A stretch of 64,000 nt of DNA, taken from NCBI RefSeq assembly GCF_001010285.1, contig NZ_CP011104.1, forward strand, positions 1,798,001 through 1,862,000, given 5' to 3'. The notes under the pieces are model-generated. The model did no database searches, was not told the DNA's origin, and saw only the letters and a program-made list of their open reading frames with translations. The translations under genes were made by a program, and so were the position numbers. Every line of letters begins with the position of its first letter. Positions within the stretch are counted from its first letter, which is position 1. Below are positions 4,973-52,027 of this stretch, in pieces. This stretch comes from Photorhabdus thracensis. GTDB taxonomy: Bacteria; Pseudomonadota; Gammaproteobacteria; Enterobacterales; Enterobacteriaceae.

Positions 4973-5160
4973 AGATATGATATAACCATATTAATCACTG
5001 AAGGAAATGGCTATACCAGCTCACACACTGCATCTGTGAGGAGACTCAATGAATTCAGCTGAAAGTTATATTGGTTATCTGGATAAACAACAACCCTATG
5101 AAATTTTTAATATACGAGTCATTAAAAATCATATAATTCAAAAAATTAAAATAACAATCC
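4973..5160 (+). pseudogene. Probable fossil of an SDR-type nucleotide-sugar epimerase
   Basis: The 349-base gap between the dehydratase and the EamA gene has no intact gene. One frame from 4982 reads ITILITEGNGYTSSHT, which looks like the decayed dinucleotide-binding start of a GalE-type epimerase (ILVTGGxGYIGSHT). A second frame from 5049 reads SYIGYLDKQQPYEIFNI, resembling the C-terminal PYEVFNIG region of the same family. The two ends lie about 80 bases apart, so almost the whole gene would have been deleted. The match is by eye on short stretches and could be chance. No other signal was seen in 5161-5295. Confidence 0.35.
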
Positions 5161-5295
5161 AATAGAATCTCATTATTAGATATATCATATGCATTATACT
5201 TCCTTCAGTTTTTCTCTCAAAAAAGGAAAATAAAAATTATGGAATTGACCTCTTAGTACGAGCCTATAACTTTATGAAAAAGTATCAAAATAGCT

Positions 5296-6249: not shown

Positions 6250-7013
6250 GTGCAATTATAAAGAATTTCTTCACAATGTAATGGGGTTAAAGTTAACCAA
6301 TATTCTAGAAAATAGGAAGTATAAATAGCGGACTATCATTGTGGACAACATTGAATGGAGGAAATGCCTTCTTAATGTACCGATCTGAATGGCTATACTC
6401 TAAAAACACAGGAGAAACATAGGTTTTATAATATATGAGAAAGAACTCAATAAAAATATTGTATTATCTAAGACCCTTCAAAATAACCCCACTGATCAGA
6501 AAAAATAACATTTTCACACCTTTATTTAATTAAACAGCTAACTGAATCCTTCTTAAGTCTACCGAACTTGACTCTCACCCAGTAAATAACCTCAAATCCA
6601 ATCACAGGAACGATTCCAACAAAAAACCATCAAAACCCCTGATTAGCAGCCTTATTTTATCAATTAATTAAACAAGCAGCGTATTAAGCTTGACCCGGGG
6701 AAGCTTACAGTTTACTCTCCCCCAAAATAGTTACAAAATCTTATCCCCCATTACTTTTTGTTACGACAGACAAAAGTACTGGAAAATCAACACAATAGAT
6801 AAGATTATAGAATCCTATAGGCGTTCTGGGAGCCAACAACCTAGTGCGGTAGCTTTATTTAATGGTTATTAACATACTGACTCAGGTTTTTCATCTGTAT
6901 ATATAAGAAAATTCCTACATGCTTAAGCAAAAATCATTAAATAACCTCATTTAATGGCTAACCATACAATTAACCTAAATCAGTAATAATATAAATAGAT
7001 TGGCCAAATTAAT
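6250..7013 (+). other. 764-base stretch without a recognisable gene
   Basis: Very AT-rich DNA with many stops in all frames. A 60-codon open frame at 6690-6872 has no family I recognise, no good ribosome-binding site and no gene-like neighbours, so I do not call it a gene. The stretch lies between the transporter and an rmlA fossil and is probably what remains of older O-antigen genes. No promoter or repeat could be supported. Confidence 0.4.
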
Positions 7014-7073
7014 ATGAAAGGCATCATTCTAGCCGGTGGTTCCGGCACCAGATTATACCCTATAACAATAGGT
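7014..7073 (+). pseudogene. rmlA: Fossil of rmlA (glucose-1-phosphate thymidylyltransferase), first 18 codons only
   Basis: The ATG at 7014 opens [18 protein letters not shown], the strongly conserved nucleotide-binding start of RmlA (GGSGTRLYP signature). After about 18 codons similarity ends abruptly and unrelated sequence follows, so nothing functional is made. RmlA would make dTDP-glucose for rhamnose or dTDP-amino sugars. No rmlB, rmlC or rmlD is visible in the window. The fragment shows that an ancestor of this locus had a dTDP-sugar pathway that was later replaced. The sequence from 7074 to about 7245 was not recognised, though it may belong to the flanking mobile elements. Confidence 0.68.
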
Positions 7074-7418
7074 GTATTTCGCCTCGACGACCTTGTTCAA
7101 GCAGGCAATACATCGCTTTTTTACGGAAATATTACCGGAACTGGCCGGGAACCTGTCGTGCCGTATTAATGACAACTTCCAGGTTATGAATACTGCATCT
7201 TCAAGTTAAGCGGGTATATATTGTTAGGCACGATTTTATTGAATTATGAAAAAACATCTTGTAGCCAATGACCAATACCTGACGAACTTTGAGCAAAAAA
7301 GTTATGAAGAAAAGCAGGGTAACGAATTTAAAGCACATCGTTGGATGTAGGAAAAGACGCATAGCTGATTAGCTGGATGAATCGCTTTCGGCGAATACTG
7401 ATGCGCTGAGAGAAGAAA

Positions 7419-7446
7419 CTAGGTGTTTAGTCCCAACATTTGATGG
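7419..7446 (+). repeat. Left terminal inverted repeat of the IS481-family element
   Basis: The 28 bases beginning CTAGGTGTTTAG are the reverse complement of 8408-8435 except at two adjacent positions. CTAG at the outer end is probably the duplicated target. Confidence 0.8.
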
Positions 7447-7493
7447 ATAGGGTTCATAGTGAATCTTTCTGGTTCAAGAGTCTATTGTTTGCA

Positions 7494-8374
7494 AATATAT
7501 TCATAGGGTGTTAACCCCCAAGGGTCTTTAACCGTCTTGCAAAATTGTATACCAATACAAAGTCACCCAAATGAATTTCTAATTGTTGATGTGTATCATA
7601 GTGGTAACGTTTGACAGTTGCTTCTTTGAGGGTCCGGTTCATACGTTCCCCCCACCCATTAGTCCAAGGGGATTTGATTTTTGTCAAACGGTGCTCTATC
7701 GCGTTGGGTTTACATGCCCTGTCAAAGATATTCATTTAGGCATAGATATCTTTTTCCGGGTTGGTAAATTGGCATCCGTTATCTGTCAGAATAGTATGAA
7801 TGTGATAAGGGATTATTTTGAGTAAGTTCTCTAGAAATTGGGCAGCATTTAATTTTCCGGCCTTGGCTTTCAATTCAACATAAACAAACTTACTGGTTCT
7901 ATCCATTGCGACAAAGAGATTCAATTTTCCCTCAACAGTTCGAACTTCAGCGATATCGATATAAAAATACCCGATAGGACAACGTTTGAATTTTTTTGTG
8001 CCACGGGTTTAGTTTATTTCCCTTCATTTCCAGCAATCTGGAAATGCCATAGCGCTGAAGGCAGCGGTGCAATGAGGAACGAGTTAAATGTTTAATTGAT
8101 AGCGGCAAAGCATATAAACAATCATCTAAAGGCAGCAATGCTCACTTTCAGAATTCAACAATACTGGCTTCTTCTGCTTCAGACAGTACCGTCGATTTTG
8201 GCACAAGGGGCCTGTAGGTAAGTCATTTACTGACGCCCATTTTTCCCATTCAGCCACAGTCTTCGGACTAATATGATAGCGTTCAACAAGGACTTTTAGA
8301 CTTTCTAGACTACTTTGTATTGCTCGACGCATTGCCTCAGTCGTTGTGGCACACCGGTGTAAAATCTGTCCCGT
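7494..8374 (-). pseudogene. IS481-family transposase, broken by frameshifts and a lost start codon
   Basis: Read leftward, the pieces give an N-terminal helix-turn-helix (ATTTEAMRRAIQ, SPKTVAEWEKW), a middle region (TRSSLHRCLQRYGISRL) and an rve integrase core. The core includes LFVAMDRTSKFVYVEL and ILTDNGCQFT, where its acidic residues lie, and the segment SPWTNGWGERMNRTLKEATV. At least three changes of frame separate the pieces. The expected start at 8374 is ACG instead of ATG, behind an intact GGAG-like ribosome-binding site. Together these rule out an active product. In life the family recombines insertion-sequence ends through a DDE active site. Related IS481 elements are common in this bacterial family. 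Confidence 0.82.
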
Positions 8375-8407
8375 AACTGCTCCTTCGACTGAATGGAAAT
8401 TATCGTA

Positions 8408-8435
8408 CCATCAAATGTTGGAGCTAAACACCTAG
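8408..8435 (-). repeat. Right terminal inverted repeat of the IS481-family element
   Basis: Mirror copy of 7419-7446, ending CTAAACACCTAG. The following base resumes the IS5-family fossil. Confidence 0.8.
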
Positions 8436-8562
8436 AAAATTATAAAGCAATGCTACACTTGGCATGTGGATTAATTGTCTAGAATAAAATCCATTGGGAT
8501 AGGAACAATATACTATCAATCTAGCTAGAATTAACATTAATAGATTATATGGAATTTAAATT

Positions 8563-9642
8563 ATGGCTGTTGTTATCGGAAGTGCCAGTGAATTAAATAT
8601 TACAATAAAAATGATTTGCGATTTCTACAAAAAGCATTGGTCAAGGCCAATTATATTGACTAATGAAGATTTTTACATTTGGCAATTCATTAATAATCCA
8701 TGTAATAAGAGCATCGATAACTGTTGTGTTGCGATAGATTATGATAAAGTCGTTGGCATAATGGGATTAAATGAACGGGATTTTGTCCTTGATGGAGCTA
8801 TAGAAAAAGGGGCTGAATTAACGACTTGGGTTATTGCTGAATCTCATCGTAATAAAGGGTGTGGGCCTAAAATGATTGAATATTTAAAAAATAAATATTC
8901 AGTTATGATTGGAATGGGAATATCTCAAACTGCATTGCCTGTATATATTAGAAACGGATTTAAATATATAAAATCAATTCCAAGATATGTTCATGTTATA
9001 AGCTGGGATAATATTTCCTCACTGACTACAATTGATCCTCTCGCGAAAAAATATGCAAAAGGACAATTAAAAAAAGTAAACTATAACATACTTGATTTCT
9101 CTAAAGATGATATAAATAATTTATATAAAGAATTCTCCAAAAACTATAATTCGTTTTCCAGAACTCACGATGACATATATTGGCGATATAATGAACACCC
9201 ATATTTCAAATATGAATATGTTATCATAGAAGCCGAAAATAAAACAAAATGCTTTGTTGCCTATCGGATAGATCGTAATATAGATGGCCTTATTATGGCT
9301 CATTGCTTAGATATTTTTGGCGATAAACAAGCTTATTCTGCTGGCATTTCATTTATAGCTGACATAGCTAAAATCAATGCAGCAGATGCTATTGACATAT
9401 ATGCAACAAATTCATCTCTAGTTTCAGAATTAAAATGTAATGGGTGGTTCTCAACATTAGACGATGATTTTTTTAAATTTCCTCATTTATTCCATCCTAT
9501 AGAAGTTAGAGAACCAGCAACTACGTCTTTAATTTTATGGTCTAGTAAAAACATTAATATCCTTCTTGATACTGGAAAATTACACATTACTAAACAAGAT
9601 GCTGATCTTGATAGACCAACTCTTTATAAAAAGGATGTATGA
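8563..9642 (+). CDS. GNAT-family N-acetyltransferase
   Basis: The protein of 359 residues has an N-terminal GNAT domain (about 1-140). The acetyl-CoA-binding loop is HRNKGCGPKMIEYL, followed by a conserved IRNGFKY turn. A second, weaker GNAT-like half follows (about 170-310). Proteins of this type often sit beside a polysaccharide deacetylase in surface-polysaccharide clusters, as here, where its stop overlaps the next start by four bases (ATGA). It could N-acylate an amino sugar freed by the partner deacetylase, or the amino sugar made by the upstream PglE-like enzyme. The substrate is an inference. It has been kept intact although it lies between two IS graveyards. Confidence 0.78.
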   Translation: MAVVIGSASELNITIKMICDFYKKHWSRPIILTNEDFYIWQFINNPCNKSIDNCCVAIDYDKVVGIMGLNERDFVLDGAIEKGAELTTWVIAESHRNKGCGPKMIEYLKNKYSVMIGMGISQTALPVYIRNGFKYIKSIPRYVHVISWDNISSLTTIDPLAKKYAKGQLKKVNYNILDFSKDDINNLYKEFSKNYNSFSRTHDDIYWRYNEHPYFKYEYVIIEAENKTKCFVAYRIDRNIDGLIMAHCLDIFGDKQAYSAGISFIADIAKINAADAIDIYATNSSLVSELKCNGWFSTLDDDFFKFPHLFHPIEVREPATTSLILWSSKNINILLDTGKLHITKQDADLDRPTLYKKDV

Positions 9643-10607
9643 TGAGTGACCTAACTGTCGTTATGTACCACTATGTAAGAAGAATTCATGATTCCCGTTA
9701 CCCTGGAATAAAAGGATTAGAATTTGACTTGTTTTTAGAGCAAGTTGCATATATAAAAAAGAACTATACTCCTATTACTATAGAACAAGCTATTCATTCT
9801 TTTGAAAGCGGAGAAAAACTACCAAATCACGCAATTTTACTAACCTTTGATGATGCCTATAGTGACCACTTTATTAATGTTTATCCAGTCCTTAAAAAGA
9901 ATAATATTCAAGGATGCTTCTATGCTCCTGCTAAAGCTATAACTGAAAATATAATCCTTGATGTTAATAAGCTTCATTTCATTCTTTCCTCTTGTAAAGA
10001 TCTTTCCAAGATTATAAATCATATAAAAATTCTATTAGAGAAAGAGAGGAAAAATCATAATATAAAAAATTTTGACGAATACTACTCCGAACTAGCTATT
10101 GCCAATAGATTCGACTCTGCAAATACTATTTTTATAAAAAGGTTATTACAAGTCGCACTACCAGAGCCTATCAGAAATAGAATTTGCGATCATCTCTTCA
10201 AATATTATGTTGAAATTGATGAAAAATCGTTCAGCAAAGAACTATACATGAATAAATTTCAATTAGAACATATGATTAATGACGGGATGCATGTAGGAGC
10301 TCACGGATATGATCACTACTGGTGGAATAAATTAACTGACAGTGAACTTAACCAAGAAATAGAATTATCTCTACATTTCCTTAACACAATAGGCGCAGAT
10401 AATCAAAATTGGACTGCATGCTATCCATATGGGTCTTCTAGTGATAATGTAGTTAATAAGTTAGGAAAAATGGGATGCAAAATAGCATTTACTACACAAG
10501 TAGATATCGCCAATATTAATTCCAATCATAGATTATTAATCCCAAGGCTTGATACCAACGATCTACCTAAACATAGAGATGCAAAAAATAATAAATGGTT
10601 TAAATAA
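9639..10607 (+). CDS. Polysaccharide deacetylase family protein (NodB-like)
   Basis: The protein has 322 residues. The NodB-type metal centre is visible: TFDDAYSDHF near residues 68-77 gives the catalytic and metal-binding aspartates, and GAHGYDHYWW near 222-231 gives the two histidines four residues apart. A later ACYPYG motif is also typical. There is no signal peptide, so it probably acts in the cytoplasm, on a precursor rather than on finished polysaccharide. It is translationally coupled to the acetyltransferase upstream (overlap at 9639-9642). The pair may together swap one N-acyl group for another. No homologue with known substrate can be named from sequence alone. Confidence 0.8.
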   Translation: MMSDLTVVMYHYVRRIHDSRYPGIKGLEFDLFLEQVAYIKKNYTPITIEQAIHSFESGEKLPNHAILLTFDDAYSDHFINVYPVLKKNNIQGCFYAPAKAITENIILDVNKLHFILSSCKDLSKIINHIKILLEKERKNHNIKNFDEYYSELAIANRFDSANTIFIKRLLQVALPEPIRNRICDHLFKYYVEIDEKSFSKELYMNKFQLEHMINDGMHVGAHGYDHYWWNKLTDSELNQEIELSLHFLNTIGADNQNWTACYPYGSSSDNVVNKLGKMGCKIAFTTQVDIANINSNHRLLIPRLDTNDLPKHRDAKNNKWFK

Positions 10608-10689
10608 ATCACGTATCTATTTAATTAAAAAATCATTTTTTAGGCATACCCTTAAATATTAATCAAATCAAAATATAGTATAATTATTT

Positions 10690-11255
10690 TATGATAAAGG
10701 CACAGTGGTTCAAGCACTTCATGTCGTCAACACCTATGATGCCGGTTCTGGTATCGCGTTATACCAACAGACGATAGAAAACTAAGGTAAAAGCCAAACT
10801 CATTGAATCACTTGCCCTTGATGGGGCTATCGTCACTCTGGATGTTCTGCATTGTCAGACAGAAACTCACAATAAAAGGCAATCAAAAACAGTTTCATAA
10901 GTTTGTTAAATCTCATTTTGCAAGCCATCACAATAACGATTAATCAATTGAATTTACTGCGAAAATAAGGGAATGGTCGCACAGAGCAACTTGGTATGTC
11001 AGCTCATTACCGCTGGATGCTGAAGCAGCAACAAAAACGATCAAACAGCACTGGGGGATTGAAAATAAACTTCATTGGTTGCTGGATGTCACTTTTAGGG
11101 AAGATAAATTATCCCTAAAGATCCTGATAAGGCTGCACATATGACATTATTTAATCGGATTGCATTAACGAGACTTAAAGACAGTCAGGCATCAAAACGC
11201 CGGAGAACTACGTACATGGTCAAGAGAATTTCGCAACGAACTTATCTTTGATTAA
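10690..11255 (+). pseudogene. ISAs1-family transposase fossil
   Basis: In changing frames the sequence encodes VVQALHVVNTYDAGSGIAL, then LDGAIVTLDVLHCQT (the DDE aspartate region), then HYRWMLKQQQKR and a GIENKLHWLLDVTFREDKLS region with the glutamate. This order is that of the ISAs1 family (DDE_Tnp_ISAs1, H-repeat-associated). Stops and frameshifts are frequent. No terminal repeats could be assigned. It is the first of two ISAs1-type fossils lying next to each other upstream of neuD. Confidence 0.72.
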
Positions 11256-42389: not shown

Positions 42390-43439
42390 ATGAAAATATT
42401 GGTGATCGGCCCTTCGTGGGTGGGTGACATGATGATGTCGCAGAGCCTTTACCGAACATTAAAGGCCCTGCATCCTAATGCAGAAATTGATGTAATGGCT
42501 CCAGCCTGGTGCCGTCCGCTACTGGCAAAAATGCCGGAAGTCAATCAGACGCTGGCAATGCCATTAGGCCATGGAGCACTGGCATTGGGAGAGCGCCGTC
42601 GTCTTGGCGTCGTACTGCGTGAACATAAATATGACCGCGCTTATGTGCTGCCAAACTCTTTTAAATCTGCATTGGTGCCTTTCTTCGCCAATATTCCTCT
42701 GCGCACCGGCTGGCGCGGTGAAATGAGATATGGATTGCTCAATGATATTCGTATACTGAATAAAGAAGCTTTCCCATTAATGGTTCAACGTTATGTCGCA
42801 TTGGCTTACGATGCAAAACTCAGTAGCGCTACGGAGCTTCCTCAACCATTACTGTGGCCTCAGTTGGCTGTCAGTGATGAAGATGTTGCTGAATCTACCG
42901 CAGCATTCAATATTTCTGATCACCGGCCGATTATCGGTTTCTGTCCCGGAGCAGAGTTCGGTCCGGCAAAACGTTGGCCGCACTATCATTATGCCGCGTT
43001 GGCTCAACAGCTTATCACTAAAAAGGGATATCAAATTCTGCTGTTTGGTTCCGCCAAAGATCATGAAGGTGGAGAAGATATCCGCAAGTCACTGACAGAA
43101 GAAACCCGTGAATACTGTATCAATCTTGCCGGACAAACATCTCTTGAGCAGGCGGTCAATATTATCGCAGCCTGTGATGCTATTGTGACCAACGATTCCG
43201 GTTTGATGCATGTCGCCGCGGCACTCAATCGCCCTCTCGTTGCACTCTACGGCCCAAGCAGCCCAGATTTTACTCCACCATTGTCTGATAAAGCAGAAGT
43301 TATCCGCCTTATCACTGGCTATCATAAGGTCAGAAAAGGTGACAGTGCACACGGCTATCATCAGAGTCTGATTGATATTAAACCAGAGCAGGTTATGGCT
43401 TCTCTGGATAAATTATTACAAGCGGAGAACCAGGATTAA
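42390..43439 (+). CDS. waaF: LPS heptosyltransferase II
   Basis: WaaF adds the second heptose to the inner core. The 349-residue GT9 enzyme has ILVIGPSWVGDMMMSQ, the short PLGHGAL segment, LPNSFKSALVPF, GFCPGAEFGPAKRWP near 178 and NDSGLMHVAAAL near 262, the GT9 donor site. It is on the inner side of the cytoplasmic membrane. The length and all motifs fit E. coli WaaF. It overlaps waaC by one base. Confidence 0.97.
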   Translation: MKILVIGPSWVGDMMMSQSLYRTLKALHPNAEIDVMAPAWCRPLLAKMPEVNQTLAMPLGHGALALGERRRLGVVLREHKYDRAYVLPNSFKSALVPFFANIPLRTGWRGEMRYGLLNDIRILNKEAFPLMVQRYVALAYDAKLSSATELPQPLLWPQLAVSDEDVAESTAAFNISDHRPIIGFCPGAEFGPAKRWPHYHYAALAQQLITKKGYQILLFGSAKDHEGGEDIRKSLTEETREYCINLAGQTSLEQAVNIIAACDAIVTNDSGLMHVAAALNRPLVALYGPSSPDFTPPLSDKAEVIRLITGYHKVRKGDSAHGYHQSLIDIKPEQVMASLDKLLQAENQD

Positions 43440-44401
43440 TGCGGGTTTTACTGGTTAAGACTTCTTCCATGGGAGATGTACTCCACTCTCTCCCCGCACT
43501 GACTGATGCAGAAAAAAACCTGCCTGGTGTCCGTTTTGACTGGGTGGTAGAAGAAGGATTCGCACAAATTCCCGGCTGGCACAGTGTAGTTGATCAAGTT
43601 ATTCCTGTTGCTATTCGCCGCTGGCGTAAGAACTGGTTTGGTAAAGAGATCCGCGCAGAACGCCGTTTATTTAAAGAAAAACTAAAATTACATCATTATG
43701 ATGTCATTATTGATGCTCAGGGGTTATTAAAGAGTGCATTTCTGGTCACTCGATTAGCTCATGGCCCTAAACATGGTTACGACCGTAAAAGTATCCGTGA
43801 GCCATTAGCAAGTTTTTTTTATGATTGCCGCCATGCAGTCAGTAAGCAGCAACATGCCGTAGAACGTATCCGCGAGCTGTTTGCTGTCAGCCTGGGTTAT
43901 GCTAAACCCGCAGAGCTGGGCGATTATGGTATTGCCCGTCACTTTTTAAAGCAGCAATCAGAAAATCAAGGTGATTATCTGGTTTTTCTCCATGCCACTA
44001 CCCGTGATGAAAAACACTGGCCGGAAAGCCATTGGCGTCAGCTTATTGCTGAAATTCAGCCGACTGGCATGCGAATTAAACTTCCCTGGGGAGCAGAACA
44101 TGAGCACCAACGTGCATTGAGGCTGGCGGAAGATCTCCCTCATGTGGAAGTTCTGCCAAAACTGACTTTGGCACAAGTCGCTCAGGAATTAGCTGGAGCA
44201 CAAGCCGTTGTCTCTGTTGATACTGGCCTGAGCCACCTCACCGCCGCACTGGATCGCCCTAATATTACGCTGTTTGGCCCAACCGATCCGGGCCTGATCG
44301 GAGGATACGGTAAGGAACAGATGTCCTTGAAAGCCGAGGATGGAAATATCAAAAGTATTACGCCATCGAAAGTACTCTCCTATCTCCGGCAAAAAATATA
44401 A
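43439..44401 (+). CDS. waaC: LPS heptosyltransferase I
   Basis: WaaC adds the first heptose to Kdo. The 320-residue GT9 protein starts VLLVKTSSMGDVLHSLPAL, the acceptor site, and has IIDAQGLLKSA, HATTRDEKHWPE and VSVDTGLSHLTAAL in the donor domain. It closes the operon. A hairpin terminator follows at 44414, and the next gene is in the opposite direction. Confidence 0.97.
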   Translation: MRVLLVKTSSMGDVLHSLPALTDAEKNLPGVRFDWVVEEGFAQIPGWHSVVDQVIPVAIRRWRKNWFGKEIRAERRLFKEKLKLHHYDVIIDAQGLLKSAFLVTRLAHGPKHGYDRKSIREPLASFFYDCRHAVSKQQHAVERIRELFAVSLGYAKPAELGDYGIARHFLKQQSENQGDYLVFLHATTRDEKHWPESHWRQLIAEIQPTGMRIKLPWGAEHEHQRALRLAEDLPHVEVLPKLTLAQVAQELAGAQAVVSVDTGLSHLTAALDRPNITLFGPTDPGLIGGYGKEQMSLKAEDGNIKSITPSKVLSYLRQKI

Positions 44402-44413
44402 AATTAATTTCAA

Positions 44414-44457
44414 AATACTGGCTAAATGCACCCTTTAACCAGTATTCAATCTTTTTT
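44414..44457 (+). terminator. Rho-independent terminator after waaC, overlapping the stop of the facing gene
   Basis: AATACTGGCTAAA (44414-44426) pairs with TTTAACCAGTATT (44434-44446) with one mismatch, and CAATCTTTTTT follows. The stop codon of the convergent GT25 gene (44446-44448) lies at its foot. Confidence 0.7.
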
Positions 44458-45189
44458 AATTTTATATATTTTTCTAACAAAGATTTTCCATAATATATTT
44501 TTAATCTTTACAGAAAAGGGCCTTCTTTTCCTTATTTCTTTCCAAATTTTTCCTGCCTTAATATTATGCTCACTATCCCGCCCCGATATGGTTGTATTAA
44601 CAGCATCCTCACTTTCTGTAACCAAAGCGGGCACTGTACAACATAATTTTATAACGCCATTTTCCCTGAAAAATTCCCAGCGATCTGCAACCAACCATAC
44701 AGGATAAAGGAAAGCAATGAGGTTTTTAGCTGCCTGATTATTCAATATATAACCACAAGCTAATGTGGCGTCTAATACCGATTTAATATCCACACCACAA
44801 GAAAGATTATATTTAGAATGTTCAAAATATTGACTGGCTTCACTCAAAAGAATAGCAGAAGGGGCTATTATCTTTTCTTGCTGAATTTCATTTAAGAATT
44901 CAGGCAAACGTTCATTTAAGATAACATCATCCTCTAATATTAATGCCATAGGAATATTATTTTCAACGATATTCCTGTAGATTTTTATATGACTTAAAGC
45001 ACACCCAATCTCACCAGGCGTTATAGCATCACTTAATTCTCTTGTTTGCCTCTGTAACTCCTCCTGTGATAACAGGCGGCCATCAACAGCCTCAATAAAT
45101 TCATAATCTAAGTTTAGTTTAATACATTGTTCTGCTATTCTTTTCCTTCTCTCTGTAGAATGTTTAAGATTAATAATAAAAGTTTTCAT
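44446..45189 (-). CDS. GT25 (LPS glycosyltransferase, LpsA/Lob1 type)
   Basis: The 247-residue protein opens TFIINLKHSTERRKRI and has FIEAVDGR, GEIGCALSHIKIYR and LILEDDVIL near 83-91 with the acidic pair, as do LpsA-type enzymes that add galactose or other hexoses to lipooligosaccharide in Haemophilus and relatives. The sugar it adds is unknown. It is the last gene of the waaQ-led leftward operon, 27 bases after the Mig-14-like gene. A good AGGA site precedes ATG 45189. Confidence 0.87.
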   Translation of the reverse strand: MKTFIINLKHSTERRKRIAEQCIKLNLDYEFIEAVDGRLLSQEELQRQTRELSDAITPGEIGCALSHIKIYRNIVENNIPMALILEDDVILNERLPEFLNEIQQEKIIAPSAILLSEASQYFEHSKYNLSCGVDIKSVLDATLACGYILNNQAAKNLIAFLYPVWLVADRWEFFRENGVIKLCCTVPALVTESEDAVNTTISGRDSEHNIKAGKIWKEIRKRRPFSVKIKNILWKIFVRKIYKIKKD

Positions 45190-45216: not shown

Positions 45217-46104
45217 TTAAGGAAAAATCACTCTTTGTAAGTTGTCTCTATTGCACCACCTATTTTTATATTCAAATGTTGGCCGCCCGAAACTAAATCT
45301 CATCTCCAAATTATTTTCACGGCTGTATTCAATAGCATCCTTAACATTAACCCATGTAGAAACCGTTCCTAGCGATAGATTTGGATAGCTCAAATCCATT
45401 CCGCTATTAACATAGTCATAGCAAATCCATTTTTCACATTGTTTTTTAACAATAAATTGCATTGCGCAAGGATTTCCTTCTAACCATAAAATATTACCAA
45501 AATTTATAGCGGGTATTTCTTCAAGAATTTCCTGCATTTCATTTTTATATGCATGTTCATTCCTGCGTTTAAAATAGAGATAATCATAAATATCTGTTAA
45601 TTCTTTCGCATCATAATGATCAACATTAACAACACTCCCCCCACTTTTTATAAAACGATTCAACTCTCTATTTCTTGTTTCTCTTGTTTTTCTAGAGATA
45701 TCCTTAACCAGACAGATCTGTCTTTTAGAATTTAATTTTTCCGAACAGTTAATAGTATTAACTTTATTTTTCGACGACATAAACTTTGATTTAAATGGAA
45801 TAATAGATCTAACATCCGTTCTAATCGGCAATATTATCTCATCAAAATTAAGTGGATACTTATTAATTCCTTCTTTAATGACAATTTTCTGCTCACCAGC
45901 GAGGTAGCGATCTCTCCAGCTACAGATACCACCAATGATATTCCCTGAACCATCTCTTTTTATATAGAATTTCTCATTTAGCTGAAAACGCTTATGGAAA
46001 AATTCCAAGATTTTTGGAGAAGTGATCACACTTCCCCCGTATAAATTATAAGCCTCTTGATAATCATCAAAGGAACCTAATTTCCAACCAAAATTTAGTA
46101 GCAT
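45217..46104 (-). CDS. Mig-14 family protein (GNAT-type fold)
   Basis: The 295-residue protein has YGGSVITSPKILEFF near 22, FIVKKQCEKW and, at the C-terminus, RFSFGRPTFEYKNRWC, the ending shared with Salmonella and Pseudomonas Mig-14. Mig-14 is needed by those bacteria to resist host antimicrobial peptides and is attached to the inner face of the membrane; how it works is not known. The fold resembles a FemAB/GNAT acyltransferase. Its place in an LPS-core operon suggests it changes the core. I chose ATG 46104 with AGGA rather than the TTG codon just before it. Confidence 0.85.
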   Translation of the reverse strand: MLLNFGWKLGSFDDYQEAYNLYGGSVITSPKILEFFHKRFQLNEKFYIKRDGSGNIIGGICSWRDRYLAGEQKIVIKEGINKYPLNFDEIILPIRTDVRSIIPFKSKFMSSKNKVNTINCSEKLNSKRQICLVKDISRKTRETRNRELNRFIKSGGSVVNVDHYDAKELTDIYDYLYFKRRNEHAYKNEMQEILEEIPAINFGNILWLEGNPCAMQFIVKKQCEKWICYDYVNSGMDLSYPNLSLGTVSTWVNVKDAIEYSRENNLEMRFSFGRPTFEYKNRWCNRDNLQRVIFP

Positions 46105-46137
46105 CAATTAATCCTGTCAGTTTTATTTTTTCAATTA

Positions 46138-47094
46138 TTACGACTTCTTTAACTGGTAATATTCAGCCAATGTCATCCCTTGAACCCGCGATTTCAAATA
46201 GTTAAATAATCCCTCCAAATCCTGATAAAGACTCTCAATTTGTTCTTCATTTTTAAATGTCGGGCTACCACCAGGCATAAATTCAGATGAATGCAGCATA
46301 AATTCAACATAATCACAGCCTTCTGCCAATGTTTGCTGAATAACTTTCTTCATTTGCTCCAGATTACCACCTTTTGGCCGTAACCAGTTAACAGAAGGAG
46401 AACGCGGCTTTCCGCGCAAATTATCGTATTTCTGTTTCAGGGAATTCATCAACGGCGAGTGCTTATATTGGATGCTCATTGGTACTTCCAGCAAAGAAGA
46501 ACCGCCTTCTTTGGAGATATCCTGCAAATCCATAAAATAGGCATAAGATGGAAAGTGGCTATAATCAGTTCCACCGTTACCATTAGGATCACCTTTTGTG
46601 AAACGCCAATTAACCCGCGGCGTTACCGAACAATCGACTTGATAGCCATATTCCACCAACAATTCAGCATAATATTCATTAAATGCCCAACGACCCGCCC
46701 GATGGCTTAACATTTTAGTTTGCAGTTTATCTTCTAATAACTGAGTCATTAGACTAACTTTGGCTCTGACTTGTTCTTTTGGAAATTCAATCAGATAAGG
46801 TTTATAGCGCATATCATCGTCGGTAAGAGGAGCAAGAGGTGGATTATTCCAGGCATGTAAATGCATACCTATTTCACCTTGACCTCTGGCAATAACATCT
46901 TTAGCAAAGTCAATGTATAAATCATCCATAGCCATCTCATAGTTCGTCAACCAAACTGGTTTAAAACCAAAACGTTCGCATAGACTCTGAAATCTTGGTA
47001 AATAACGCGTATTTTCTGTCGAAATCTGACTGTGGTTTTGCCACAGGTCATCACCTTCAGTATCAATCGTAATAATAAATGCGGGTAAAGTCAT
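46138..47094 (-). CDS. Polysaccharide deacetylase-like protein (WalW type) in the core operon
   Basis: The 318-residue protein has PAFIITIDTEGDDLW (DTEGD near 12-16), GMHLHAWNNPP with the two metal-binding histidines, and SHRAGRWAFNEYY. This arrangement fits a deacetylase-type active site, as in WalW-like proteins of other core clusters. No signal peptide is visible, so it probably acts on a precursor inside the cell, perhaps removing an acetyl group from GlcNAc in the core. The start at ATG 47094 seems better than the TTG further upstream. Confidence 0.8.
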   Translation of the reverse strand: MTLPAFIITIDTEGDDLWQNHSQISTENTRYLPRFQSLCERFGFKPVWLTNYEMAMDDLYIDFAKDVIARGQGEIGMHLHAWNNPPLAPLTDDDMRYKPYLIEFPKEQVRAKVSLMTQLLEDKLQTKMLSHRAGRWAFNEYYAELLVEYGYQVDCSVTPRVNWRFTKGDPNGNGGTDYSHFPSYAYFMDLQDISKEGGSSLLEVPMSIQYKHSPLMNSLKQKYDNLRGKPRSPSVNWLRPKGGNLEQMKKVIQQTLAEGCDYVEFMLHSSEFMPGGSPTFKNEEQIESLYQDLEGLFNYLKSRVQGMTLAEYYQLKKS

Positions 47095-47236: not shown

Positions 47237-48331
47237 TTACAAAGATAAATATTTTGCCAAAACAATATCTAAATCAAACTTCTTATACATATCCTCTGTG
47301 ATGGCAGGAGATTCCTGATAAACAAACCTCATTTTTTCTGCAAGTGAGTCAACTGTCAGTTCTGATTTATATTTTTCCAATTCACCGACCATAATTTCAT
47401 TCACACCACCCGGACATGCCACACTGATAATTGGAGTATCGCAAATCAATGATTCAATCAGTACATTACCCAGCCCTTCACTGTCAGAACTCAAGACAAC
47501 CGCTTTAGCTCCACGAATAACAGGTAATGGGTTTTCGAGGAATCCGGTTAGGATGACTTTAGATTGTAAGTTTAAATCCACAATCTTTTGTTTTATCTGT
47601 TGAGTAATAGACTCATCGCCATGTCCAACAATCAATAACTTACATGGCAGAGCTGCTTTCGCAAAAGCCTCTAATAAACGATCATGCCGCTTAACCTGAT
47701 GAAATCGGCCAACATGTAATAAATACGTTTCATCCGAATAAGGATTATTTTGCAAAGATTTTTCTTTAATGTCAGGAATGTTGAAAGGATTATAAATTGT
47801 CACCATTTTCTTAGACATGAGTGACAGATTAATGGCTAAATCTTTCCCAACGGCATCAGATACACAAATTAGATTTCGGTTATTATATGTCCATTTAATT
47901 TTCTGTTTCTTGATCCAACGGGGTAATCCGCTTTTATTGCCAAGGTACGAACTCGAGAACACACCATGAATACAAAACCACACATTTAATCCCGCCAGTA
48001 CCTTTGATTTCACGACAATGCGATCGGTTTTATGCAAATTTGATACAATCAATGAGGGGATTCCCTTCCGAAGAAATATTTTTTCTAAAACCTTATCCAT
48101 AGATTTAGCCCTACGGCAAATCTCAGTCTGTCTTCTGAAAGGCCCATTGTACTCGTCAGCATCAATAATCAGTTCAATACCACCAGGCACTAAATACTCA
48201 CATTTTTCCGCCAGAGAAAGCAGCGTAATATCATACCCTTTCTGTTGCAGACCATCACAAAGCCGGATAGTGACATTTTCTGCACCTCCACCAGGTAATC
48301 CATCAATGATAAATAATATGTGTCCTTTCAT
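47237..48331 (-). CDS. GT4 glycosyltransferase of the LPS core
   Basis: The 364-residue GT-B enzyme begins HILFIIDGLPGGGAENVTIRL, a GT4 start, and has LLHVGRFHQVKRHDRLLEA near 203-221 and SSDSEGLGNVLIESL near 275-289, which carries the donor-sugar E-x7-E motif. Sugar and acceptor are unknown. Its start overlaps wabG by four bases (ATGA). A 142-base gap follows, so genes further down may have reduced expression or their own promoter. Confidence 0.87.
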   Translation of the reverse strand: MKGHILFIIDGLPGGGAENVTIRLCDGLQQKGYDITLLSLAEKCEYLVPGGIELIIDADEYNGPFRRQTEICRRAKSMDKVLEKIFLRKGIPSLIVSNLHKTDRIVVKSKVLAGLNVWFCIHGVFSSSYLGNKSGLPRWIKKQKIKWTYNNRNLICVSDAVGKDLAINLSLMSKKMVTIYNPFNIPDIKEKSLQNNPYSDETYLLHVGRFHQVKRHDRLLEAFAKAALPCKLLIVGHGDESITQQIKQKIVDLNLQSKVILTGFLENPLPVIRGAKAVVLSSDSEGLGNVLIESLICDTPIISVACPGGVNEIMVGELEKYKSELTVDSLAEKMRFVYQESPAITEDMYKKFDLDIVLAKYLSL

Positions 48332-49458
48332 GATGAGAGCACCCTTTCGTATAGTCCAATCAGCTGTTGTGATAAATGTTCCGGTGTATAAGGCAGTACC
48401 TTAGTTCTCGCTAATTCCGACATTTTATTATTCAAATGATCAGAAGGCGTATTTTGAATCGCTTCTGTAATATCCCGGATATTCAAAGCATCACATATAA
48501 ACCCGTTACTTCCAGAGGTAACAAATTCAGCACCACCGCATGTTGTACTAGTTATGACCGGAAGCCCACAAGCCATTGCCTCCAATATCACATTTGGGAA
48601 TGGATCATATAAGGTAGGCAACAATAAGCCATCTGCAATCTGATAAAAAGGCAGTGTCTTTTTCTGAATGCCCATAAATCTGATTCGCTCATTGCACCCC
48701 AGAGAATTGGCTAATTGCTTATATTTCTTCTCTTCTTTATCCTGACCCACAACAATTAAATATGCATCAGTAGCACTCACTGCTTGAATCGCTACTCTTA
48801 GCCCCTTTCGCTCAAACCCGGAACCGACATAAACGAAACATTTCGCCTGTTGGGGAAGATCATATTCTTTCCTTAACAACATTCTCTGAGATTCTATTGC
48901 CGGAAAAAATTGCTTATGGTCTATCGCATTATAAATAACCGATATTTTTTTCTCCGAAAGGCCAAAATCCGCCATGACTTCCCGTTTTACCATTTCCGAG
49001 TTACAAATAACCATTTTTAGTTCTGGCGCCGAATACATTTTTTGCTCAGCATCCATAACATAACGATGGTAACGACTCGCAAAAAGTAATTTGCCTCTCC
49101 AAGAGGATAAAACCCGGGCACGCTGCTGCAACCACCGCTGATGAACACCATCACCCGCACGGTAAATATCGCAACCAGCAATGCGTTCGTGACTTTGAAC
49201 AAGATCAAATTGCTCTTTTTCCCATACTGCTCTGGCCGCTTTAGCAAATCCTCTCTCACGGCTGATTCTTCCCCATTTATGAGGATTTGCTAAATGAACA
49301 TACCAGTCAGGGCTAATGTCTCCCTGCCAAGAACGAGTAATAACATTAAGCTCCAGATTTTCATTACCTAAAGCTTCTAAGGCGCGGGAGACAAAACGTT
49401 CTGCACCACCATCCGGGCGATATTTCTGCCGAACAATAGCAAGACGTACTGATTTCAT
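48328..49458 (-). CDS. wabG: Core glycosyltransferase WabG (GT4)
   Basis: The 376-residue enzyme begins RLAIVRQKYRPDGGAERFVS and has QSHERIAGCDIYRAGDGVHQ, YVGSGFERKGL near 206 and EAMACGLPVITSTTCGGAEF. It is close to Klebsiella and Serratia WabG, which adds galacturonic acid to the second heptose, and related to E. coli WaaG, which adds glucose. The GalA assignment is the more likely for this kind of core but needs chemical evidence. It overlaps both neighbours by four bases. Confidence 0.9.
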   Translation of the reverse strand: MKSVRLAIVRQKYRPDGGAERFVSRALEALGNENLELNVITRSWQGDISPDWYVHLANPHKWGRISRERGFAKAARAVWEKEQFDLVQSHERIAGCDIYRAGDGVHQRWLQQRARVLSSWRGKLLFASRYHRYVMDAEQKMYSAPELKMVICNSEMVKREVMADFGLSEKKISVIYNAIDHKQFFPAIESQRMLLRKEYDLPQQAKCFVYVGSGFERKGLRVAIQAVSATDAYLIVVGQDKEEKKYKQLANSLGCNERIRFMGIQKKTLPFYQIADGLLLPTLYDPFPNVILEAMACGLPVITSTTCGGAEFVTSGSNGFICDALNIRDITEAIQNTPSDHLNNKMSELARTKVLPYTPEHLSQQLIGLYERVLSS

Positions 49459-50519
49459 AATAAATTTCTCCGGGCAGCAGCAATAACTACATCACTGGGA
49501 ATGACATTCAGATAACGTATGCCCGTTTTAGTATCAACATCATCAGGATCAGGTAAATCACCATAATCACCAGCCCAAATTACTTCACCCTTCGCTTCCC
49601 ATGGGTGCCAGAATACTAACTTTGATGGCCCAAATAAAGCAATACAAGGTGTTTTCAATGCTGCGGCCATATGCATAGAAATAGAGTCTACCCCTATGAA
49701 TAAATTAGCTTCATCAATCAGCGCTGCAAGTTGAGGCAAGGTTAATAGGCCAGCAAAAGAAATAACGCTTTCTTTTGGGCAGCTTGATAAAATAGTCTCG
49801 ACCATATCTTCTTCCTTACGATCTGGCCCGGAGGTAACAACAATTGTCCAACCATCAGACTGTAACGCACTAATCGTTTCACCCATCTTTTTCTCATCCC
49901 AACATTTGAAAAACCAGCGGGATGTTGGCTGCACCACAATATATTTTTGACTCACCCCGTGCTGCTCAAGAAGTGCCCGGACAGCGTCTCTATCCTCCTG
50001 ACGGTAACTCATTGTCACTTTAGTACTGGTCGATGGAAGATTTAACAGCGAAAGAGTTGACAAATTTTGCTCAACAACATGCAAAAATTCACTATGCTCT
50101 GTCGGCACTAGATTTGTGAAACATTTTTTCCAAAACAGGCTTCGTCGTTTTGCTAAATCAAACCCAATACGTACTTTTGCTCTGGTAAATCGTGTCACAA
50201 ACGCACTATACCATTGATCAGAGAGATTAATAACTATGTCATATTTACGATTCCTTAATTGTTTAAGTAGTCTCCATTCATGACTAAAATGTGCTCTAGC
50301 GCCTTGCTTCTTCCATTGCCTGTCCATAGAAAATATATTCGCCACAGAAGAAAAATTAGCCAGTATCGGTTCTGTTTCTTTGTAGAGTAAAACATCAATT
50401 TCTACTGAGGGATAATTATCCTTCAGAGTATTAATAACAGGTGTCACTAATAGCACATCACCATGATGTCGTAACTTTATTATCAGAATACGGCTAAATT
50501 GAGTTGGTAATTTACTCAT
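49455..50519 (-). CDS. waaQ: LPS core heptosyltransferase III
   Basis: WaaQ adds the third, branching heptose to heptose II. The 354-residue GT9 protein has ILIIKLRHHGDVLLVTPV near 11-28 and FIGVDSISMHMAAAL near 277. PTSRWFFKCW near 197 is the WaaQ form of the central motif. It is the first gene of the leftward core operon, divergent from waaA. The 230 bases between them should hold both promoters; I found no convincing ops element for RfaH. Confidence 0.93.
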   Translation of the reverse strand: MSKLPTQFSRILIIKLRHHGDVLLVTPVINTLKDNYPSVEIDVLLYKETEPILANFSSVANIFSMDRQWKKQGARAHFSHEWRLLKQLRNRKYDIVINLSDQWYSAFVTRFTRAKVRIGFDLAKRRSLFWKKCFTNLVPTEHSEFLHVVEQNLSTLSLLNLPSTSTKVTMSYRQEDRDAVRALLEQHGVSQKYIVVQPTSRWFFKCWDEKKMGETISALQSDGWTIVVTSGPDRKEEDMVETILSSCPKESVISFAGLLTLPQLAALIDEANLFIGVDSISMHMAAALKTPCIALFGPSKLVFWHPWEAKGEVIWAGDYGDLPDPDDVDTKTGIRYLNVIPSDVVIAAARRNLL

Positions 50520-50749
50520 GGCATTCCCAGTATAAAGATACAGATAATAAGGAAAAAGCTGTCTCTATATGTTCGGAAGCTGCAAGAAACTCCTGCTACT
50601 TTTATATATAATAGAAGCACAATTTTACCCCAAAAACCTAATTTACCGTTCCTATTCTGTTCAGATTCTAGAAGCCATACGCATTTTCATACTTTCTTTG
50701 AAGCAGTGTGGTACTATTGGCGCTAATTTATATAAATGAATTTGATAGA

Positions 50750-52027
50750 ATGTTACTGCGTTTATATCAGGTACTTCTCTACCTTATCCAACCTCTGATT
50801 TGGTTGCGCTTATTACTTCGCAGCCGCAAGGCTCCTGCTTACCGTAAACGTTGGGGTGAACGTTATGGTTTCTGTGCCGGTAAAGTTGCCGCTGGGGGCA
50901 TTCTGCTTCACTCAGTGTCCGTCGGTGAGACATTGGCTGCAATCCCTTTAGTTAGAGCTTTACGCCATCATTACCCTTTTTTACCGATTACGGTGACGAC
51001 GATGACACCAACGGGTTCAGAAAGAGTCCTCTCCGCGTTGGGAAATGATGTCAATCACGTCTATTTGCCATACGATCTTCCCGGCTCCATGGAGCGTTTT
51101 CTCAATCAAGTTAATCCAAAGTTAGTCATCATTATGGAAACAGAACTTTGGCCTAATCTGATTTTTCAACTCCATCGACGTAACATTCCTCTGGTTATTG
51201 CCAATGCCCGTTTATCTGCACGTTCAGCAGCGGGATACCAGAAAGTCGGTAATTTCGTAAAAATAATTTTACGAAAAATTACCCTGATTGCGGCGCAGAA
51301 TCAGGAAGATAGCGAACGTTTTATTGAACTGGGTTTGCGGCGCTCTCAACTGGCTGTCACCGGTAGTTTGAAATTCGATATCTCAGTAACACCTGAATTG
51401 GCCGCTAAGGCCGTAACATTACGACGCCAATGGGCTGCTCGCCGTCCTGTCTGGATAGCGACCAGTACTCATGATGGAGAAGAGAGCATTATTCTGGATG
51501 CTCATTGCAAGTTACTAAAACAATGTCCAAATCTGCTGCTGATCCTGGTGCCACGCCATCCTGAACGTTTTGCTAAAGCTGAAGAATTAACAAAGAAAGC
51601 CGGGCTAAGTTATATCCTTCGCAGCTCCGATAAAATTCCTGACGCCAATATTCAGGTTGTTATCGGCGATACTATGGGTGAGCTAATGCTGCTCTATGGT
51701 ATTGCTGATCTGGCTTTTGTTGGTGGCAGCCTGGTTGAACGCGGTGGGCATAACCCACTGGAAGCCGCAGCTCATGCCATTCCAGTGTTGATGGGCCCAC
51801 ATACCTTTAACTTTAAAGATATCTGCGCCAAACTGGATCAGGCTAATGGTCTGATTACCGTTACGGATAGCCAGTCTTTGTTCACCGAAATCAATAGCTT
51901 ACTGACTGACGAAGATTATCGCCTGTATTATGGCCGCCACGCAGCGGAAGTATTACATGAAAATCAGGGAGCGCTTCAGCGTCTGCTTAAATTACTGGAA
52001 CCCTACCTCCCATCCCGGAGTCACTAA
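50750..52027 (+). CDS. waaA: Kdo transferase
   Basis: WaaA (KdtA) adds two Kdo residues to lipid IVA, an essential step. The 425-residue GT30 enzyme has an N-terminal membrane anchor (LLYLIQPLIWLRLLL), LHSVSVGETLAAIPLV, METELWPN and GHNPLEAAAHAIPVLMGPH. The open frame continues 14 codons upstream; the ATG at 50750 gives exactly the E. coli length. It is followed immediately by waaE and coaD in the same direction. Confidence 0.96.
   Translation: MLLRLYQVLLYLIQPLIWLRLLLRSRKAPAYRKRWGERYGFCAGKVAAGGILLHSVSVGETLAAIPLVRALRHHYPFLPITVTTMTPTGSERVLSALGNDVNHVYLPYDLPGSMERFLNQVNPKLVIIMETELWPNLIFQLHRRNIPLVIANARLSARSAAGYQKVGNFVKIILRKITLIAAQNQEDSERFIELGLRRSQLAVTGSLKFDISVTPELAAKAVTLRRQWAARRPVWIATSTHDGEESIILDAHCKLLKQCPNLLLILVPRHPERFAKAEELTKKAGLSYILRSSDKIPDANIQVVIGDTMGELMLLYGIADLAFVGGSLVERGGHNPLEAAAHAIPVLMGPHTFNFKDICAKLDQANGLITVTDSQSLFTEINSLLTDEDYRLYYGRHAAEVLHENQGALQRLLKLLEPYLPSRSH

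Follow-up and report, generated by a model that had tools for sequence, protein, structure and literature searches.

In the LPS-core cluster of Photorhabdus thracensis, a Mig-14 family protein is proposed to transfer an amino acid from aminoacyl-tRNA to core GlcN made by the neighbouring WalW-like deacetylase, a deacetylate-then-aminoacylate module to which we assign a probability of roughly 0.53. Gene order, family membership, modelled fold and joint occurrence with deacetylases are observed; the donor, the acceptor, which amino acid is used and how peptides are affected are inferred. In the proposed route, the two enzymes occupying the WabG and WabH positions would add a uronic acid and then GlcNAc, and WalW, acting as a WabN-type enzyme, would remove the acetyl group to give GlcN. 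Mig-14, a predicted double-GNAT protein of the Fem type, would then take an amino acid (most likely alanine or glycine) from aminoacyl-tRNA and couple it to the freed amine through an amide bond. The resulting N-aminoacyl-GlcN would keep its positive charge at a changed position, which agrees with published antimicrobial-peptide phenotypes of relatives of Mig-14. tRNA-dependent aminoacylation is known for peptidoglycan and phosphatidylglycerol; if the proposal is correct, it would join the repertoire of LPS core modifications, and the effect of Mig-14 on cationic-peptide sensitivity would be explained. One hypothesis would thereby cover both the peptide protection conferred by Mig-14, which has no agreed mechanism, and the enzyme behind the core L-alanine of Pseudomonas aeruginosa, and it predicts a change in core mass. 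No paper joining mig-14 and aminoacyl was found in the literature searched, and no Photorhabdus core structure appeared among the literature matches listed.

The window, a stretch of 64,000 nucleotides (NZ_CP011104.1, positions 1,798,001 to 1,862,000), places the Mig-14 and WalW genes in an LPS-core context with certainty. The sequence-only reading had described the Mig-14 gene as lying in a core operon between a GT25 gene and a WalW-like deacetylase gene, and its coordinates, its match to PF07395 (173.8 bits, E 6e-51, above the cut-off of 22) and the core flanks all bear this out. The genes concerned are the following:

42390..43439, (+) strand: WaaF heptosyltransferase II
43439..44401, (+) strand: WaaC heptosyltransferase I; its gene and that for GT25 converge
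44446..45189, (-) strand: GT25 glycosyltransferase (PF01755, E 6e-34)
45217..46107, (-) strand: Mig-14 (PF07395), predicted to be a Fem-like aminoacyl transferase with a double-GNAT fold; start codon TTG at 46107 or ATG at 46104
46138..47094, (-) strand: WalW, predicted WabN-type, CE4-like core GlcNAc deacetylase, 318 aa
47237..48331, (-) strand: GT4, predicted GlcNAc transferase; shares 45% identity with the Klebsiella glycosyltransferase encoded second after rfaQ, regarded as the WabH position
48328..49458, (-) strand: GT4, predicted GalA transferase; shares 63% identity with the Klebsiella glycosyltransferase encoded first after rfaQ, regarded as the WabG position
49455..50519, (-) strand: WaaQ-type heptosyltransferase III (TIGR02201, 502 bits, cut-off 170)
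50708..52027, (+) strand: WaaA Kdo transferase

The WalW, Mig-14 and GT25 genes are transcribed in that order from one strand, with gaps of 30 bp between the first two and 27 bp between the last two. The locus is flanked by hldD, waaF and waaC on one side and by waaQ, the two GT4 genes, waaA, a GT2 gene and coaD on the other, and no ops-like GGCGGTAG occurs in the window. Among related Photorhabdus loci, the GT25 protein is shortened to 168 aa in one (L179), while another (L177) lacks an open reading frame of at least 90 aa at this place. Co-location is by itself already known: PMC7877592 reports that the waa cluster of three Dickeya zeae strains contains walW and a Mig-14 gene, and in P. aeruginosa a Mig-14-like gene, PA5003, belongs to the core cluster.

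WalW is probably a WabN-type deacetylase of core GlcNAc. The canonical CE4 metal motif is H(S/T)xxH; it is absent from WalW, which has an HxH motif (H78, H80) that is invariant, together with E13 and H268, in 17/17 rows. The protein gave no Pfam deacetylase match, and no signal peptide is apparent from its sequence. Its structure model, with a pLDDT of only 62.9, resembles CE4/NodB deacetylases, scoring Z 13-16 against CE4-type proteins (13.6 for ArnD), with GH57 enzymes also at Z 13-15. Over 313 residues, WalW shares 72% identity with the deacetylase encoded next to rfaQ in a Klebsiella pneumoniae core cluster, and its waaQ-, wabG- and wabH-like neighbours correspond to those of that enzyme. 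The Klebsiella protein is taken as WabN by its position and as the sole deacetylase annotated there, in a record that does not carry the name wabN. The function of wabN is the deacetylation of core GlcNAc to GlcN (PMC8552709).

The Mig-14 protein, 296 aa long if translation starts at TTG and 295 aa long if it starts at the ATG that follows, was modelled with high confidence (pLDDT 92.9) as a double-GNAT fold over its whole chain, and from this model it is most likely a transferase acting on amino groups. Its best whole-length PDB matches are aminoacyl-tRNA-dependent transferases (Z 15-17), comprising FemX, FemA and streptothricin-type peptide synthases. Rows 1-14 of the VIA-align comparison hold FemX and FemA (Z 16.7-16.0), Sbb17 and Sba18 (Z 15.3-15.1) and MprF domains (Z 13.1), FemX aligning over 245 residues at an rmsd of 3.2 A; the best tandem GNAT of another kind tied with MprF at Z 12.9, but at an rmsd of 6.1. 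Foldseek also ranked FemX first (E 2e-7), with the first tandem GNAT of another kind at rank 10. The modelled fold thus points to an aminoacyl group from aminoacyl-tRNA as likelier than a plain acyl group from acyl-CoA, although a shared fold alone does not prove the donor.

Sequence motifs give a possible further link to the Fem proteins. The residues G274...Y280-K281..W284 are invariant in Mig-14, in 73 to 75 rows, that is, all rows of the tree alignment (75 distinct of 88 rows) with a letter at the position. They align with the FG...FK..WG motif of XrtA-FemAB-like proteins at an hhalign probability of 57% (E 1e-4) when the 75-row profile is set against all 11 FemAB-like ORFs, and at only 7.7% with a smaller profile of 33 rows (32 of 38 ORFs plus the window protein) against 10 of the 11. 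In hmmsearch, the XrtA-FemAB-like proteins align in turn with chains of the FemX and FemA type at E 1e-6 to 9e-6, and the lysine of the C-terminal motif has a catalytic role in FemX. At sequence level, PDB chains searched with the Mig-14 and WalW profiles gave nothing useful, and the FemAB profile PF02388 matched neither the window protein up to E 10 nor the window's own genome. With 157.8 bits (E 4e-46) against a cut-off of 515 for NF011840, the NCBIfam model of the Salmonella Mig-14 equivalog, the protein is rejected as an equivalog of Salmonella Mig-14. The Escherichia coli core protein WaaZ was likewise considered as a PF07395 member and rejected; it weakly matches PF01973, and the literature searched yielded no paper joining waaZ and mig-14.

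The two genes are linked at core loci without forming an obligate pair. WalW was present in 12/12 Photorhabdus genomes examined and had an adjacent Mig-14 gene in only 4; it lacked one in 8/12, and 2/12 had no Mig-14 at all. In a Klebsiella core cluster, similarly, the deacetylase gene is present and none of its neighbours is annotated as Mig-14. Of 39 Mig-14 loci (L067 and L068 being two contigs of one strain, and the frame being broken in L081), 17 are not core loci, and none of these 17 has WalW in the fetched flank. At the 22 core loci, WalW lies on the same strand within 5.4 kb in all 18 that could be judged, the other four ending too near Mig-14. An obligate pair is therefore rejected, given WalW alone in many genomes and the 17 non-core loci. 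Two Mig-14 lineages, in Photorhabdus and Xenorhabdus, are found next to WalW at one and the same site. Within the family to which the window belongs, WalW was found in 9/10 genomes with Mig-14 and in 7/20 without (Fisher p 0.007, uncorrected for kinship; 30 genomes of at least 3 Mb, four small genomes of 34 being left out), a genome-level co-occurrence that is only suggestive. Beside distant WalW relatives, a FemAB/GNAT gene of one family lies immediately downstream in 11/16 regions; when three of these genes were scanned with TIGR03019, one passed and two fell just below the cut-off.

In a second bacterial group, Mig-14 is associated with a deacetylase of unrelated fold (PIG-L, as against the CE4-like WalW). 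In family f186, taken by inference for the Pseudomonadaceae, 64 of 99 genomes have both Mig-14 and a PIG-L deacetylase and 35 have neither; in all 64 the two genes share contig and strand with the deacetylase downstream. Both states occur within 8/19 genera, one of which has 15 genomes with both genes and 16 with neither. The P. aeruginosa core carries N-(L-alanyl)-GalN in many strains, with GalNAc reported at the GalN position in others, and the transferase placing the L-alanine was called unknown in 2023 (PMC10579960). PA5003, called Mig-14-like in the title of a paper cited in an excerpted source, sits in the P. aeruginosa core cluster and, according to an excerpt of PMC6048251, shares a transcription unit with dnpA, which encodes a putative de-N-acetylase. 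Mutants in PA5002 and PA5003 are described in an excerpt of PMC3639378 as altered in beta-lactam susceptibility, as are other core mutants. The core of dnpA mutants has been reported as intact (PMC10579960), in agreement with preliminary data in the PMC6048251 excerpt.

The sequence-only reading had suggested that Mig-14 acylates an amino group freed by the deacetylase, to the benefit of an insect pathogen facing host peptides. The lifestyle fits Photorhabdus, and a core amine as target is favoured by the amino-group transferase fold and by the company of core-cluster deacetylases in two bacterial groups; the plain acyl group gives way to an aminoacyl group as the likelier one, and WalW often occurs without Mig-14. 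For P. laumondii, an excerpt of the review PMC11279074 states that pbgPE (L-Ara4N) already gives resistance to polymyxin, colistin and cecropins. A version close to that earlier idea, in which Mig-14 is an ordinary GNAT that uses acyl-CoA to place an acetyl group, or another acyl group, on the core amine once it is free, appears unlikely. In its favour, the window protein weakly matches Acetyltransf_6 (PF13480; 16.1 bits, below the cut-off of 22), which a relative from f186 passes with 42.5 bits, and other tandem and single GNATs come close behind in both fold lists. Nevertheless, the top whole-length matches use aminoacyl-tRNA, and the CoA-loop motif [QR]xxGx[GA] is missing at the loop position: it occurs in the last 150 residues of 0/48 Mig-14 ORFs (further up in 8) and of 3/75 tree rows, where it lies at residues 181-184 or 267 of their own chains, away from the loop preceding the conserved G247 (window protein numbering). 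Moreover, re-acetylation after the partner's deacetylation would presumably be futile, and the known P. aeruginosa substituent is L-Ala.

Slightly more probable, at about one chance in five, is a Fem-like aminoacyl transferase that acts on a peptidoglycan precursor or on some other amine of the envelope (L-Ara4N, phosphoethanolamine or a lipid), with the WalW neighbourhood in Photorhabdus incidental. FemX, the top fold match, acts on peptidoglycan precursors; a second Photorhabdus Mig-14 follows MBOAT, DUF459 and Ape1-like genes of the peptidoglycan O-acetylation type, with a gap of 100-218 bp to the nearest of them in 7/8 loci, and the 17 non-core loci of 39 tend the same way. This reading fits poorly with a Mig-14 gene inseparable from the PIG-L deacetylase in f186, with WalW close by at all 18 judgeable core loci and with two lineages at one core site. 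It is improbable that Mig-14 is no LPS enzyme and instead acts at the inner membrane by binding or degrading antimicrobial peptides, a role that some papers state; according to PMC5913352, Mig-14 "can degrade" cationic peptides, and Mig-14p is found in the inner membrane fraction. GNAT/Fem is a transferase fold, no protease occurs among the best 50 matches of either fold list, and the linkage with core deacetylases would be left unexplained.

Aminoacylation of WalW-made GlcN is accordingly the reading preferred for the window gene. Its extension to the whole family is held more tentatively, at a little under even odds: Mig-14 proteins would be Fem-like, aminoacyl-tRNA-dependent N-aminoacyl transferases for envelope amino sugars, PA5003 would be the L-alanyl transferase still wanting for the core of P. 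aeruginosa, and the two-enzyme module would be recurrent, apparently assembled three times (CE4-like WalW with Mig-14, PIG-L with Mig-14, WalW-like with XrtA FemAB). The module is supported by the Fem-like fold, the absent CoA loop, the f186 linkage, N-(L-alanyl)-GalN, the two lineages beside WalW, deacetylase partners of unrelated folds, the FemAB/GNAT gene after distant WalW relatives and the PA5002/PA5003 mutant phenotype. It is weakened by the frequency of WalW without Mig-14, the many non-core Mig-14 loci, the reportedly intact core of dnpA mutants, the GalNAc carried by other P. aeruginosa strains, the second Photorhabdus Mig-14 beside O-acetylation-like genes, the absent PF02388 match and the single transcription unit of Salmonella mig-14. 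In E. tarda, whose core cluster has no listed Mig-14, the core GlcN or GlcNAc bears glycine, so that amino acids can be attached to a core of this kind by a different enzyme; this glycine was rejected as proof of N-glycylation, since it may sit on GlcNAc, where it cannot be N-linked.

Among known systems, the peptidoglycan ligases FemX (Weissella viridescens) and FemA (Staphylococcus aureus) share the whole-length double-GNAT fold (Z 16-17, 244-255 residues, rmsd 3.2-3.7 A) and may, as bridged by the XrtA-FemAB-like profiles, have the C-terminal FG...(F/Y)K..W motif in common with Mig-14 (57%, or 7.7% with the smaller profile, as above). They differ in sequence (about 10% identity) and in acceptor, a peptidoglycan stem peptide as against the core amino sugar predicted for Mig-14. 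Fem-like enzymes of streptothricin-type pathways aminoacylate an amino sugar; Sbb17 and Sba18 (PDB 9wqw/9wqx/9wqy), of the same fold and similar size (Z 15.1-15.3), were solved with streptothrisamine bound, although they serve antibiotic biosynthesis and not the envelope. Salmonella Mig-14 and the ColV plasmid Mig-14p belong to the same family as the window protein, below the equivalog cut-off; according to the excerpt of PMC5913352, Salmonella mig-14 is a single transcription unit and the Mig-14p gene lies beside hlyF, neither being in a core cluster. The K. pneumoniae protein taken as WabN, an LPS-GlcNAc deacetylase, closely resembles WalW, its gene having no annotated Mig-14 neighbour. PA5003, compared by description only, resembles the window gene in its core cluster and putative de-N-acetylase partner; that partner is a PIG-L protein (DnpA), and heptose-bound GalN would be the likely acceptor, as against GlcN on GalA for the window gene. 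The XrtA/PEP-CTERM FemAB proteins (TIGR03019) offer a similar arrangement, a WalW-like deacetylase and directly after it a Fem-like gene in 11/16 regions, but in other polysaccharide clusters and from another branch of the GNAT_6/FemAB proteins.

In the genome carrying the window (5.15 Mb, one contig), a minus-strand run in the LPS core locus comprises, in order, waaQ, two GT4 genes, WalW, Mig-14 and GT25, flanked by hldD-waaF-waaC (+) on one side and by waaA-GT2-coaD (+) on the other:

48328-49458, minus strand: GT4, first after waaQ; 63% identity to the first glycosyltransferase after Klebsiella rfaQ
47237-48331, minus strand: GT4, second after waaQ; 45% identity to the second glycosyltransferase after Klebsiella rfaQ
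46138-47094, minus strand: WalW, upstream of Mig-14
45217-46107, minus strand: Mig-14, core locus
44446-45189, minus strand: GT25, downstream of Mig-14

There are 4 bp overlaps between waaQ and the two GT4 genes. The sequence-only reading had placed Mig-14 between a GT25 and a WalW-like deacetylase in the core locus, and this arrangement is borne out, with the same-strand genes separated by gaps of 30 bp (WalW/Mig-14) and 27 bp (Mig-14/GT25). The G+C content is 31-35% across Mig-14 and GT25, compared to 44-49% in the adjoining waaF/waaC. The window Mig-14 shares 93-95% identity with the Photorhabdus khanii, P. namnaonensis and P. tasmaniensis proteins, the last being its tree partner. GT25 is shortened to 168 aa in one related Photorhabdus (locus L179) and lacks an ORF of at least 90 aa in another (L177), so it seems dispensable. 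A second Mig-14 gene of this genome lies outside the window (L001, G000:C1:2561399-2562058), where the ORF has 251 aa (relatives: 306-307 aa) and is directly preceded by two ORFs of an IS1182-type transposase; as the first part is absent, the core gene is probably the sole intact copy. A Mig-14 gene beside walW in a core cluster has already been published for Dickeya zeae (PMC7877592).

WalW has no Pfam match. Among named records its closest relatives are deacetylases of core clusters: the identity is 72% to a ‘deacetylase’ adjoining rfaQ in Klebsiella pneumoniae, 73% (over two segments) to the ‘WalW protein’ adjoining rfaQ in K. aerogenes, and 73% to an unannotated stretch in a Proteus mirabilis record. 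In the Klebsiella record we take the first and second glycosyltransferases that follow rfaQ for WabG and WabH and, from its position, the WalW counterpart for WabN, a name absent from that record. WabN has been described as an LPS-GlcNAc deacetylase needed with WabH for outer-core GlcN (PMC8552709). The WalW model, of middling confidence (pLDDT 62.9), is similar to CE4 deacetylases (Z up to 16; 13.6 for ArnD), and GH57 enzymes score nearly as high. E13, H78, H80, R135, D154 and H268 are invariant in 17/17 rows (window, 15 distant relatives and Klebsiella). In this model the predicted first strand occupies residues 5-11, from the protein start, which leaves no room for a signal peptide, and cytoplasmic action would be expected.

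The AlphaFold2 model of Mig-14 (33 sequences, pLDDT 92.9) shows two GNAT-like halves. Foldseek places FemX at the top (E 2e-7), with FemX, FemA, MprF and Sbb17 among the first nine rows; rank 10 is a tandem GNAT of a different type. In VIA-align, rows 1-14 are FemX, FemA, Sbb17/Sba18 and MprF domains (Z 16.7 to 13.1, 233-255 residues), followed in row 15 by a tandem GNAT (Z 12.9, rmsd 6.1), which by the program's rule ties with the MprF rows and not with the first eleven. FemX, FemA and MprF use aminoacyl-tRNA, and for the Sbb17/Sba18 peptide synthases this use is stated in PDB titles. None of 48 Mig-14 ORFs has the CoA-loop motif in its last 150 residues (8 have it further up); among the tree rows, 3/75 carry it in the last 150 residues, away from the loop position. 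The conserved C-terminal SFGR...YK.RW of Mig-14 aligns with DFGR...FK.QWG of XrtA-FemAB-like proteins, which in turn have sequence matches to FemX and FemA-type chains at E 1e-6 to 9e-6. The FemX lysine within this motif is catalytic. Since the window Mig-14 has no FemAB match, it is described here as working like a Fem ligase and not as a FemAB member.

Mig-14 is sparse in the order (11/394 genomes). One scan gave 39 named Mig-14 loci, 22 of them core loci, defined by the presence of hldD (L067 and L068 are one strain, and L081 has a Mig-14 broken into shorter frames). WalW lies upstream of Mig-14 on the same strand in all 18 of these 22 with enough DNA, the two genes being 31-34 bp apart in Photorhabdus and separated by 98-5391 bp and 0-7 ORFs in Xenorhabdus; WalW is present in the fetched flank of 0/17 non-core loci. 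Several Xenorhabdus carry an extra protein between the two genes (L057:8918-9811 and relatives, an 8-member cluster), whose match to the MptE-like family PF01973 is weak, stays below the cut-off and is given by E. coli WaaZ too; it may be WaaZ-like. All 12 Photorhabdus genomes examined have WalW. In 8 of them waaC comes next without an intervening Mig-14 (one has a 90-codon ORF at this point); in the other 4, including the window genome, Mig-14 lies between WalW and waaC. In the tree, the Photorhabdus core genes group with those of Trabulsiella and Rouxiella (100/100) and the Xenorhabdus core genes with the second Photorhabdus locus (99/96). A constraint joining both core groups was rejected (AU p 1e-60), the group being defined by location and the test made after tree inspection. 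Together, these results indicate that two Mig-14 lineages came to adjoin the same deacetylase. Since LPS genes are frequently exchanged at the core locus, this double arrival is less surprising than random landing would suggest.

A similar partnership occurs in family f186, taken for Pseudomonadaceae from the gene content of G554 and kin. In one genus of 31 genomes, 15 have Mig-14 and exactly these 15 also encode a PIG-L protein of 464 aa, both being incomplete in G777. Across the family, 64/99 genomes have both and 35 neither, always on the same contig and strand with PIG-L downstream (64/64). Between the two matches lie 6-42 bp in 52 genomes and 111-1850 bp in the other 12; G975 has its PIG-L match divided between two contigs, G982 into two pieces. 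Both states occur in 8/19 genera, and in each of these either gene is present only where the other is. The order at L092 is msbA, Mig-14, PIG-L, hldE. In P. aeruginosa, PA5003, through which a Mig-14-type gene in a core cluster is also already known, shares one transcription unit with dnpA/PA5002, encoding a 473-aa PIG-L-type putative de-N-acetylase (PMC6048251). A published table names the P. syringae counterparts PIG-L deacetylase and GNAT and lists PA5002 and PA5003 themselves as ‘Unknown’; the same paper finds N-alanyl in the P. syringae core (PMC8005017). The P. aeruginosa core carries N-(L-alanyl)-GalN in many strains, and PMC10579960 calls the alanyl transferase unknown, in text that does not mention PA5003. 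Further papers contain PA5003 (PMC9866376, PMC6834847, PMC4519245). In literature that included few subscription papers (Jochumsen 2011 among those missing), no paper joining mig-14 with aminoacyl was found, nor, in the passages on PA5003 covered here, any assignment of alanyl transfer to it.

The fold, the missing CoA loop, the tRNA-using relatives and the company of de-N-acetylases point to one reaction, aminoacyl transfer, with aminoacyl-tRNA and a deacetylase-freed amine as the predicted donor and acceptor. The deacetylase would expose the amine, in the window that of outer-core GlcN, and Mig-14 would transfer an amino acid from tRNA onto it. The association of Mig-14p with the inner membrane (PMC5913352) is in keeping with an enzyme on the cytoplasmic side. 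The closest chemical parallel in an enterobacterium with WabN is the core of E. tarda, where glycine has been reported on this GlcN or on GlcNAc, and the core cluster as described in the accessible text lists no Mig-14 (PMC5485987); as the linkage is unspecified and the GlcNAc form cannot be N-linked, this is a hint at most. Against the proposal stand genomes that have WalW but no Mig-14, Mig-14 loci that lack WalW, the second Photorhabdus locus with its peptidoglycan O-acetylation-like neighbours, and the dnpA deletion strains, whose core is reported to be intact; some P. aeruginosa strains are also reported to carry GalNAc at the position of the N-alanylated GalN (PMC10579960). An exchange of Ala for acetyl in such mutants would hardly show on gels. 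One positive charge is retained when the amine is N-aminoacylated, so any effect on peptides may come through position or packing, not net charge.

Outside the core, the second Photorhabdus Mig-14 locus follows glucosaminidase, MBOAT, DUF459 and Ape1-type genes (scanned in L070, where no intact Mig-14 ORF was called), a set which resembles a peptidoglycan O-acetylation cluster; the MBOAT/DUF459/Ape1 neighbours are conserved by clustering in 8 loci (L070, L073-L078, L082, around 5000-10900). In Xenorhabdus bovienii, a Mig-14 gene that lies inside a tailocin tail-fibre locus is associated with killing spectra (PMC13280938), possibly linking surface modification with the tailocin receptor or self-protection. 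Mig-14 relatives also occur in 771 plasmid records (654 Escherichia; 659 predicted conjugative), several annotated as GNAT family, and a PF07395 control search gave a match in one Escherichia coli genome.

Distant WalW relatives lie in other polysaccharide clusters, and in 11/16 such regions (L150-L161) the next gene downstream is FemAB-like, of one family; the other 5 have no FemAB-like neighbour. Three of these neighbours scanned with TIGR03019 (cut-off 260.35 bits) scored 267.8, which passes, and 260.2 and 254.1, just below, and one also matches the Mig-14 profile (E 9e-6). An XrtA/PEP-CTERM FemAB-like gene placed directly after a WalW-like deacetylase embodies the same pairing idea as WalW with Mig-14.
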